Shown here in pieces: positions 13,605-15,335 of a stretch of 64,000 bases of DNA (position 1 is the first letter of the stretch; each line of letters opens with the position of its first letter). The translations under genes and the position numbers were made by a program. Source of the stretch: Desulfomonilia bacterium (GTDB lineage: Bacteria > Desulfobacterota > Desulfomonilia > UBA1062); NCBI GenBank assembly GCA_036567785.1, contig DATCTV010000028.1:116846-180845 (forward strand), given 5' to 3'. Below the pieces are notes generated by a model. It was not told the origin of the DNA and ran no database searches. It saw only the letters and a list, made by a program, of their open reading frames with translations.

Positions 13605-14508
13605 TGCCTATACCCTCCTTGTTGGGAATTGCAGGTTCGATGTTTTCAGGCGCAGGCTCAGGCATCTTCAGACCGCCTGCTGCAAGAATCTCTTCAATAG
13701 CCGGGATGATCCGCTTGAGCAGCTTCGACTGACGGAACATATCGCGGCAGGCTATTCTTACATCCCGTTCGGGATTAGCAGGCTTCTGCGCGGCTATCCT
13801 GAACGCCGCAGGAACCACCGTCTCGAACTTGAAGATATCCGCAATGTCGTAGACAAACGATTGCGGCTTTCCGGTATGGATGAAACCTACGGCAGGAGCA
13901 TAGCCCGCAGCCAGGATCGCGGCCTCGCATATTCCATAAAGGCAGGCCGTCGCAGAACTCAGGCAGCGGTTTGGTATGTCGCCGCTTTCCCACTCGGTAT
14001 AGTCATAATTCCTGTTTTTCCATTCAACCCTGTACTGGCGCGCAAGTAGTTCATACATTTTGCGAACACGGACACCCTCAATGCCGCGAAGCTGCTCAAT
14101 GCTGCGCCTTTCCGGTGGAGCCTCCCTGAAACGCATTGCATACATCTTGCGGACGACCTTTAGCCTTGCATCATCATCGAGAGCCAGTTTCGCCTGATAA
14201 AGAAGTCTGTCGGCGCGTGCGCCTCCCGGTTGGCCCGAAGCATAAAGGCGCACCCCGCCGTCACCCACCCACACGAGCAGGCACCCGACACGTGATGCAA
14301 GGGTGACCGCCGCATGAGAAACGCGTGTACCCGGTTCCAGCATCAGACATGCCACGCCACCAACCGGGATATGCGTACGCACGCCGGTTTTATCGACAAC
14401 AACGAATGCACCGTCGAGGACATCAAGATTTCCCTTTTCAATGAACAGGATTGAGACCCTGTCCTTCATAAGGGTCGGCTTCAACGGCGGAAGTATTGGT
14501 TCGGCCAT
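13585..14508 (-). CDS. cas1: CRISPR-associated endonuclease/integrase Cas1, type I-E
   Basis: 307 residues (E. coli 305). The metal-binding residues expected for Cas1 are visible: E144 in RGIEGVRVRK, H211 in VGFIHTGKPQSF and D224 in VYDIADIFK. It integrates processed prespacers at the leader-repeat junction with Cas2. Its ATG shares one base with the TGA of the Bro-N gene (TGATG), indicating coupled translation. A proline-rich tail after residue ~275 is slightly longer than usual and accounts for the overlap with cas2. Confidence 0.97.
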   Translation of the reverse strand: MAEPILPPLKPTLMKDRVSILFIEKGNLDVLDGAFVVVDKTGVRTHIPVGGVACLMLEPGTRVSHAAVTLASRVGCLLVWVGDGGVRLYASGQPGGARADRLLYQAKLALDDDARLKVVRKMYAMRFREAPPERRSIEQLRGIEGVRVRKMYELLARQYRVEWKNRNYDYTEWESGDIPNRCLSSATACLYGICEAAILAAGYAPAVGFIHTGKPQSFVYDIADIFKFETVVPAAFRIAAQKPANPERDVRIACRDMFRQSKLLKRIIPAIEEILAAGGLKMPEPAPENIEPAIPNKEGIGNAGHRG

Positions 14509-15335
14509 CAGGCTTTTCCTTTCAGTCGTTTCAGCTTTTCCGGCTCGGCGAGATAGTTCTCTTTTGATACGACTTTCGAACCGGTCTCGGCTTCAAGCTT
14601 TTCGCGTGCTTCTCCGGCAATGCGCCCTCCTTTGCGGGCGGCAACCTTGTTCTCAGGCAATCCTTGTGCGTTATGTTTTCTGGTGATTTCGGTTGTGGCC
14701 GCCTCGCTGAGCATGGAGAATATAAGCTCCAGGTCGTTCATGTGATCGCGCAGATTTTCGCGTTTGTGGCCCTTTTGTTTCTTATATTCGGAAGGCGTCA
14801 GGCCGAATGCGGCCTTCGAGATTTCAGCAGTAAGGATCGCGTATTCAGGCTCACCCTTGACGCCCCTGTCTTTCCATTCGTCAGTCAGTTCGGCGCGGAT
14901 TGCTATGCCACGCATGCGCTTTTCGATCCAGTCATCCGAATAGCCTTTCGCCTTGTAAAGCTCACGCGTTCTCTTTGTGGCAAGCTCGGGATCTTCGATT
15001 TCCTGAACACGCTCATAGCCGACTTTAGCGAGCCAGCGCTTGAACGGCTCCGCCTTCGGTGACGGGATGGATTGGATAATGCGGAATATGCCTTCTGTGT
15101 TGGCGCAATTCATTTTCTGGATACCGCCTTGAGTTTCAATTGAAAGGGGGGTGACAATTTGTCCCCACCCTTTGGATAATTCGGCATCGCGGCTTCGCAT
15201 TTTCTTTATATAATCCGATGCATTCACAGTATCCGTCAGAGCCTCGACAACATCGACGACCACAAACCACCATTCATCATTAACAAGCGTTCGCCTGATT
15301 TCCTTACTCTGAAACACCACCAGCTTTGTTTCCAT
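14508..15335 (-). CDS. Bro-N domain (phage antirepressor/DinD-like) protein embedded in the cas operon
   Basis: 275 residues from ATG 15335 (METKLVVFQ), with GAGGT 6 nt upstream; a TTG one codon earlier is less likely. Residues 1-~105 match the BRO N-terminal DNA-binding domain: QSKEIRRTLVNDEWWFVVVDVVEALT, then DYIKKMR, NCANTEGIFRIIQSI and AEPFKRWLAKVG. The C-terminal part (GLTPSEYKKQKG, ENLRDHMNDLELIFSMLSEAATTEI, VVSKENYL) is the tail seen in chromosomal BRO/DinD-like proteins. Such domains occur in phage antirepressors and SOS-responsive genes. The gene lies 9 nt after cas6e and overlaps cas1 by one base, so it is a true operon member rather than a loose insertion. Role unknown; possibilities are transcriptional control of cas or array, or a phage or DNA-damage sensor. 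Confidence 0.9.
   Translation of the reverse strand: METKLVVFQSKEIRRTLVNDEWWFVVVDVVEALTDTVNASDYIKKMRSRDAELSKGWGQIVTPLSIETQGGIQKMNCANTEGIFRIIQSIPSPKAEPFKRWLAKVGYERVQEIEDPELATKRTRELYKAKGYSDDWIEKRMRGIAIRAELTDEWKDRGVKGEPEYAILTAEISKAAFGLTPSEYKKQKGHKRENLRDHMNDLELIFSMLSEAATTEITRKHNAQGLPENKVAARKGGRIAGEAREKLEAETGSKVVSKENYLAEPEKLKRLKGKA

Follow-up and report, generated by a model that had tools for sequence, protein, structure and literature searches.

The window, that is, the whole 64,000-nt stretch of Desulfomonilia bacterium DNA that was analysed (contig DATCTV010000028.1, assembly GCA_036567785.1), carries on its minus strand a complete type I-E CRISPR operon in the order cas3, cas8e, cse2, cas7e, cas5e, cas6e, bro, cas1 and cas2, in which bro is a Bro-N domain gene of 275 amino acids that falls in the PADLOC candidate PDC-S13 family (Pfam Bro-N, PDLC04920). 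When this junction was compared in related operons it was found that the flanking cas genes stay orthologous while the junction between them swaps its cargo. The bro gene occupies positions 14508..15335; its ATG at 15335 lies 9 nt beyond the end of cas6e (15345), and base 14508 is common to its stop codon and the ATG of cas1 (TGATG). A complete Bro-N gene in exactly this setting had been described in the first-pass annotation of this DNA, and the coordinates bear it out. L and G numbers below are labels of compared loci and genomes.

Next to bro on the same strand are cas1 (13585..14508; TIGR03638, 390.9 bits against a cut-off of 215.6), cas2 (13308..13604; TIGR01873, 121.1 against 33.15) and cas6e (15345..16016; TIGR01907, 161.5 against 45.2), whose tail is ...GIGPAKAFGCGLMMVRRV. 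They are accompanied by cas5e (16019..16732; TIGR01868, 194.2 bits), cas7e (16736..17794; TIGR01869, 349.6 bits), cse2, also called cas11 (17818..18327; TIGR02548, 106.3 bits), cas8e (18421..19986; TIGR02547, 348 bits) and cas3 (19987..22719; TIGR01587, 231.6 bits), each of which passes a Pfam or NCBIfam cut-off. For cas3 the full-length model PRK09694 stayed below its cut-off (520.6 against 569 bits), whereas the Cas3 core and HD models (Cas3-like_C_2 and Cas3_HD) pass. On the minus strand 3' of cas2 lies orf140 (12815..13237; 140 amino acids), which is without a family match and has a 51% relative 3' of cas2 in G207 (L083). The CRISPR array of this system is very large, with more than 100 repeats of a 61-nt period at 5640..12700 (strand not assigned; 113 register copies between 5300 and 12800), its end being approximate and taken from the open reading frame list.

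The Bro-N domain (PF02498) of the window's bro scored 53.7 bits against a cut-off of 25.6, and the best named match of the protein was PADLOC PDC-S13 (PDLC04920), with E 3.7e-112 and 372.3 bits over residues 3-267; both this profile match and the embedding in a multi-gene defence operon, between cas6e and cas1 of a type I-E system, agree with membership of PDC-S13. The family is very large (a database search gave at least 8000 proteins), and no second bro was found in the source genome at E 0.001. The best PHROG was phrog_15286, of unknown function (E 5.9e-87, residues 4-261), and Bro shares an N-terminal domain of the Bro-N type with annotated phage anti-repressor (Ant) families (phrog_2899, E 1e-11, residues 5-104). 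Neither location nor phage kinship makes bro an Ant gene, as it lies within a cas operon and only four of 50,697 phage records matched at E 1e-20, all below 60% identity. A recent phage copy is likewise unsupported, the window gene being the sole match in its genome and the phage matches distant (the neighbours of copies away from CRISPR loci were not scanned for phage genes). Bro is not an orthologue of DinD (NCBIfam NF008573), which it resembles weakly in its C-terminal part, residues 147-225 (18.9 bits against a cut-off of 242). A toxin-antitoxin pair with a small adjacent partner gene is not present, as cas6e ends 9 nt before bro and cas1 overlaps it by 1 nt; an RNA partner, such as the hairpin described below, is conceivable.

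For Bro a DNA-binding Bro-N domain at the N-terminus and helices in the C-terminal part are predicted, in which it resembles the DNA-damage protein DdrC. An earlier model built from a narrow alignment was poor (pLDDT 66). In a fold search with the Bro model the matches that stood out were DdrC and Bro-N/APSES-like DNA-binding domains, absence of other families from such a match list being no proof. Against DdrC of Deinococcus (PDB 7udi, 8u0g, 7qvb) the identity was 13%, the rmsd over both domains 13 A and the TM-scores by query length 0.32-0.41, which indicates that the domain arrangement differs or is flexible. PDB sequence searches with Bro gave no convincing relative (best E 0.21 and 0.037).

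The junction between effector and adaptation genes

The junction was surveyed at 49 places with a I-E Cas1 in a phylum set of 395 genomes (46 genomes above cut-off), 19 of which have a Cas1 at least 79% identical to that of the window. In 15 of these 19 same-clade loci cas1 lies more than 100 nt from the last effector gene, compared to one of the 30 others, and in that one (L167) cas6e was possibly missed. The space holds an intact bro in four of the 19 loci, one of them with an NTase-like gene behind it; a RhuM-Fic gene, a Fic gene, a DUF1016 nuclease, a HigA-like antitoxin, a 23S-IVP four-helix protein and a DUF433-DUF5615 pair in one locus each; a decayed bro in one (G222); and nothing or short leftovers in eight. 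PADLOC names several of these cargo genes PDC-S05 (RhuM), PDC-S23 (RhuM-Fic) and PDC-S02 (DUF1016). Cargo can also adjoin bro itself, as RhuM does in L052 and DUF1016 in L075; the NTase of L143 has no Pfam match of its own and a relative in L144 matches AbiEii at 24.1 bits against 22.5. Operons whose Cas5e and Cas1 are 70-86% and 78-84% identical, respectively, to those of G047 differ in contents at this one junction. A Fic, RhuM-Fic or four-helix-like gene stands immediately 5' of cas4 or cas1 in at least 10 of the 30 I-C loci with the best scores, a count that includes L197, where the cargo is followed by a gap and then cas1, and in which the far side is often cut off; of the four-helix-like genes only that of L212 was scanned, and it fell below the Pfam cut-off.

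With an intact bro before cas1 in 4 of the 19 I-E loci of its Cas1 clade and in none of the 30 others, bro is not a core Cas or adaptation protein, and an obligate pair of bro and cas1 is rejected since most same-clade I-E loci are without an intact bro. The two genes also decay separately, as a bro remnant stands before an open cas1 in G222 (L145) and an intact bro adjoins a truncated cas1 in G237. It had been proposed from the gene overlap that translation of Cas1-Cas2 depends on passage through bro; this is unsupported, because related operons have cas1 with no gene, and in one case with only a bro remnant, in front of it. The 289-nt space between cas6e and cas1 in L161 (G055) is without a long frame and holds four tandem palindromes of different bro and rhuM types, and a fifth with a longer loop by eye, so that it resembles an array of cassette cores.

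In six loci an orphan stretch that encodes the end of another cas6e follows the resident cas6e or cas5e and is itself followed by cargo or its remnant and then cas1. A pattern scan found five of these among 55 loci (L143, L145, L155, L157 and L173) and the sixth, L158, was found by eye; L144 was omitted from the count as it has no cas6e/cas5e near cas1. Five of the six orphan tails read GLMLVRR(A/I), and the corresponding end of the window's own cas6e is GLMMVRRV. This is most simply explained by joint transfer of the cas6e tail, the cargo, cas1 and cas2, so that cargo-cas1-cas2 probably moves between I-E operons as a cassette. The distance correlations agree with such a transfer. In nine bro-carrying I-E loci the distances of Cas5e and Cas6e covary (r 0.92), whereas those of cas1 do not track Cas5e or Cas6e significantly (r 0.19 and 0.22); bro gave r -0.13 and -0.20 with Cas5e and Cas6e, and a weak correlation with Cas1 (r 0.28, p 0.046).

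Recurrence and descent of bro

Relatives of bro were examined as the best 80 of at least 572 confirmed ones on contigs with one genome per species; phyla other than that of the window were covered by this search and by plasmid and phage matches. Of these 80 nearest relatives 21 are CRISPR-linked, mostly directly 5' of cas1 or cas4-cas1 of I-E and I-C systems. Five are in I-E operons (L002, L006, L052, L065 and L075), 14 are beside I-C adaptation genes (nine between cas4 and cas1 and five before cas4, with a cut upstream in L047 and ahead of cas1 in L007) and two head a cas3-cas5-type operon (L023 and L034). A I-C locus with bro, L059, belongs to Geobacter argillaceus ATCC BAA-1139, which can be cultured. 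The order cas6e-bro-cas1, which the first-pass annotation had suggested looking for elsewhere, does therefore occur at other I-E loci, with cas6e or cas5e in front. The remaining 59 are not CRISPR-linked within the visible stretch, and in seven of their loci a gene of the N4/N6 methylase, ResIII or Eco57I type is at most four genes from bro, the clusters being named from one scanned member each. In the phylum set 24 relatives had an identity of 60% or higher across 200 or more residues, and by coordinates 15 of them lie in or head I-E or I-C operons, which is more than chance: five I-E (one adjoining a truncated cas1) and, for I-C, five inside and five at the head, with G097 and G246 placed from coordinates alone. 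Type I-B is represented by a relative with 45% identity, which stands between cas4 and cas1b on plasmid pACLO of Arcobacter cloacae, a cultured strain; the order of that operon (L251, 1-6162) is cas3, a gene for an ATP-binding protein, cas4, Bro-N, cas1b and cas2. Taken together, these placements show that bro recurs beside cas1 in three subtypes, and a strictly I-E-specific bro is rejected by the I-C copies and the pACLO copy.

Two further observations concern Bro-N genes elsewhere. A shorter Bro-N family, without the middle part, is present in L147 (G376, 6223-6876), L148 (G240, 6149-6754) and L146 (G195, 9210-9632), where it lies 5' of a I-E cas3 (two of these loci) or close to a cas1 that belongs to a different type. 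In L068 (8680-10320) a bro that is a sister of the I-E copy in L065 is flanked by two rhuM-like pieces, and no cas gene was seen nearby.

The bro tree was made from 108 proteins (106 different, L074 being identical to L121 and L021 to L119) with a quick IQ-TREE run and SH-aLRT support, and 34 rows were labelled CRISPR-linked. L116 was labelled as other, though its coordinates place it at the head of a I-C operon; L066, with one doubtful cas4-like match, was excluded from the label, and L118 had no bro frame above the length limit of the map. The CRISPR-linked label needed 9 changes on the tree against a shuffled mean of 29.1, and none of 500 shuffles was as low. The linked copies, for which the first-pass annotation had raised the question of a clade of their own, are therefore clustered but do not form a single clade, six I-C rows standing among unlinked ones. 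The I-E copies are dispersed among the I-C copies (10 changes for 10 rows), and the nearest rows to the window's bro are G145 (I-C), L002 (I-E) and L003 (I-C). There is thus a pool of bro genes, associated with CRISPR, that passes from one subtype to another. The copies are patchy, swapped and once decayed, as would be expected if bro were a neutral passenger, a lone selfish gene that enters defence operons at gene junctions and brings the cell no benefit, a reading that we consider very improbable: the dN/dS of bro is 0.04-0.16, which is purifying selection, and this together with the clustering of CRISPR-linked copies suggests a function, although a selfish gene would be under selection as well.

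The palindrome within bro

Within bro there is a hairpin or palindrome of 31 nt at 15143..15173 (minus strand), centred on codon 60 of the 275-residue protein (61 in the scripts, whose numbering begins at an in-frame TTG one codon earlier), in which 13 of 15 arm pairs are complementary. As RNA it folds at -17 kcal/mol with a z of -2.1, and 6 of 200 shuffles were as good. When 108 bro genes were compared, perfect arms of at least 7 were found at codon 60 39 times, against 2.35 in shuffles that keep the protein, and other bins were far lower. Pairing at 6 or more of the 8 inner positions at the best nearby centre was seen in 101 of the 108 genes, and at four control residues in 11, 0, 6 and 7. 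The dyad at codon 60 is the best dyad of the whole gene in 89 of the 108, and the 45 nt around it have a mean fold of -18.3 kcal/mol against -8.0 at five other places. Among the 70 distinct 31-mers of these genes, which are related so that the counts are not independent events, the arms covary, in that complementarity persists where bases differ, and pairing exceeded expectation at position 4 (69 vs 43.9), position 5 (68 vs 35.1), position 12 (68 vs 35.6) and position 14 (59 vs 28.6). Complementarity fell from 0.83 to 0.41 or less when the dyad centre was shifted by one base. When palindromes were counted over the whole gene regardless of position, the mean best arm of 7.8 was not above the mean of shuffled maxima (8.4); the excess thus appears only when position is taken into account.

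The same kind of element is found in a second cargo family, as in 9 of 13 rhuM genes a palindrome of differing sequence occupies one and the same column. The largest counts at any one column in other genes were 2 of 55 for cas1, 4 of 47 for cas1c, 2 of 63 for cas5e, 3 of 55 for cas7e, 1 of 10 for fic and 2 of 6 for duf1016. Among five distant bro genes, from plasmids and a gut phage record, four have the dyad and the Chlorohelix copy is without it. G-U outnumbers A-C by 44 to 11 over all genes at the inner 10 positions, and by 44 to 29 over distinct sequences at 15 positions. The dyad may act as RNA, as a folded single strand or as an operator. Rfam gave one sub-threshold match only, at the 5' end of bro (E 0.95). 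Identical palindromes were found at 22 loci in viral contigs, eight of them in Bro- or RhuM-like frames by profile. Of the 14 others the contexts of 13 (all but L233) were examined: L244 is by eye a rhuM-like frame with TGA codons, in L242 the palindrome is inside another gene, and most others appear intergenic, several with terminator-like A/T runs, so that no phage target is shown. In L242 (10240-10264) the palindrome, of the rhuM type, is read in frame close to the C-terminal end of a protein from a viral contig; this protein ends in DDDLPF, which resembles the tip of a single-strand-binding protein.

In the Bro model residue 60 closes the helix 51-60, ahead of a protein hairpin at 62-79, and the hairpin segment of such domains is the usual DNA-reading part. 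A role of Bro in regulating the cas operon or cas1-cas2 expression, exerted through a DNA- or RNA-binding domain and possibly through the hairpin in its own gene, would fit with a Bro-N domain above cut-off, with APSES-like DNA-binding domains among the fold matches, with the conserved in-gene hairpin and with the overlap of bro and cas1. We nevertheless judge it improbable. When the whole genome was searched for the dyad core with up to 3 mismatches only the in-gene copy was found, so that no second operator was seen at the cas promoter and a double-stranded DNA operator used elsewhere in the genome is rejected. Moreover, the slot takes genes that are not regulators, and related operons do without bro. 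The dedicated regulator of adaptation that the first-pass annotation had considered is not supported, as unrelated cargo occupies the same slot of orthologous operons, copies from I-C stand among those from I-E, the majority of I-E loci are without bro, and bro and cas1 can decay independently; a role as regulator, or as sensor of phage or SOS state, is not needed to explain the pattern.

Candidate roles of Bro and of the slot

The explanation towards which we lean, with some reserve, is that bro is one of several interchangeable cargo genes, whose product, made along with Cas1-Cas2, likely serves as a second line of phage defence in its own right. The reason for cargo to settle where effector and adaptation genes meet would be that it could be expressed there with the operon without disrupting the effector complex. 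Bro might bind phage or broken DNA and block replication or shut the cell down, independently of spacer acquisition, and as a partner it would favour retention of the adaptation cassette. Several observations weigh against this explanation. No anti-phage activity of PDC-S13 was reported in the literature examined, and old duplication of cas6e could account for part of the tail scars. The clustering of CRISPR-linked copies on the tree exceeds what random cargo would give, and 29 of the 34 CRISPR-labelled copies adjoin adaptation genes rather than the operon head (some with a contig-end cut). In 15 I-C loci (14 distinct) bro distances track those of cas1 (Mantel r 0.50, p 0.0004), and dS of bro and cas1 was near equal in two I-C pairs (1.11 vs 1.15 and 1.22 vs 1.15), although unequal in three other pairs (2.05 vs 1.58, 2.14 vs 1.26 and 0.93 vs 0.56).

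The clustering, the tracking in I-C, the near-equal dS and the placement at adaptation genes would all be shown as well by a helper of adaptation, a DNA-end binder like DdrC that holds or trims fragments for Cas1-Cas2. Such a helper would account for the position beside cas1 or cas4-cas1 in I-E, I-C and I-B, and the DdrC-like model of Bro is consistent with it. We regard this as possible though rather unlikely, because 15 of the 19 same-clade I-E loci, and all 30 others, have no intact bro before cas1, the same slot is used by unrelated cargo, a bro remnant precedes an open cas1 in L145, some copies head the operon before cas3, and 59 of the 80 nearest relatives are without a CRISPR link in the stretch seen.

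Parts of the pattern are already known. PDCs are described as candidates named for their embedding in known defence systems (PMC12988326, PMC10855318, in the passages concerned), and in the present locus, likewise, one gene that fits the PDC-S13 model is enclosed by a defence operon of several genes. Here that operon belongs to a type I CRISPR system and the gene sits at the effector/adaptation boundary; the cas6e tails and the hairpin come in addition. In II-C loci of Bacteroides fragilis RhuM open reading frames lie between cas1 and cas9 (PMC5704556), so that RhuM beside cas1 is known in one II-C system. That cargo, like bro, is DNA-binding-like, of a restriction-linked family and beside cas1, but it belongs to the RhuM family and to another CRISPR type, and the pertinent passages of that paper propose no role for it. 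RhuM and Doc/Fic genes also occur in restriction-modification loci, where RhuM was proposed as a toxin in multilevel defence (PMC3710099); the same guild of cargo is thus found in nucleic-acid-targeting operons as in the CRISPR slot, the difference being that the loci are restriction-modification and PrrC loci and that the term Bro-N is absent from that paper. CreTA, an RNA-type toxin-antitoxin in CRISPR loci that is controlled by the Cascade complex (PMC12737573, in the part that treats it), is similarly a non-Cas module that lies within a cas locus and might lead to selection for its retention; no such toxin-antitoxin pair was seen at the window locus. For the cas1 slot, the cas6e tails and the in-gene hairpin no report was found in the open-access literature, preprints and most subscription journals being outside its coverage, and a literature search on such an in-gene hairpin returned nothing relevant. 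A 2024 preprint by Payne et al., which reportedly names phage defence candidates, including PDC-S13, by 'guilt-by-embedding', may hold part of these findings.

A bolder proposal, which we put forward as doubtful, is that Bro and RhuM are self-contained, plug-in immune modules in which an in-gene hairpin, conserved in structure and variable in sequence and placed where the DNA-reading segment is encoded, would serve as their own control element, so that they could be inserted into any defence operon and need neither a promoter nor an antitoxin gene. On a mobile cargo-cas1-cas2 cassette of CRISPR operons a DdrC-like Bro would tie the capture of DNA breaks to spacer acquisition, DdrC being a protein that binds nicked or broken DNA. 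The hairpin common to two cargo families is a separate and strong fact of the sequences. If the explanation of bro as interchangeable defence cargo is true, the effector/adaptation boundary of type I operons would be an exchange slot for stand-alone immune genes, adaptation cassettes would travel between operons together with their cargo, and the orphan cas6e tails would be the DNA record of operon rebuilding. This would give a concrete place to search for defences that are not yet known and a testable reason why adaptation genes persist.
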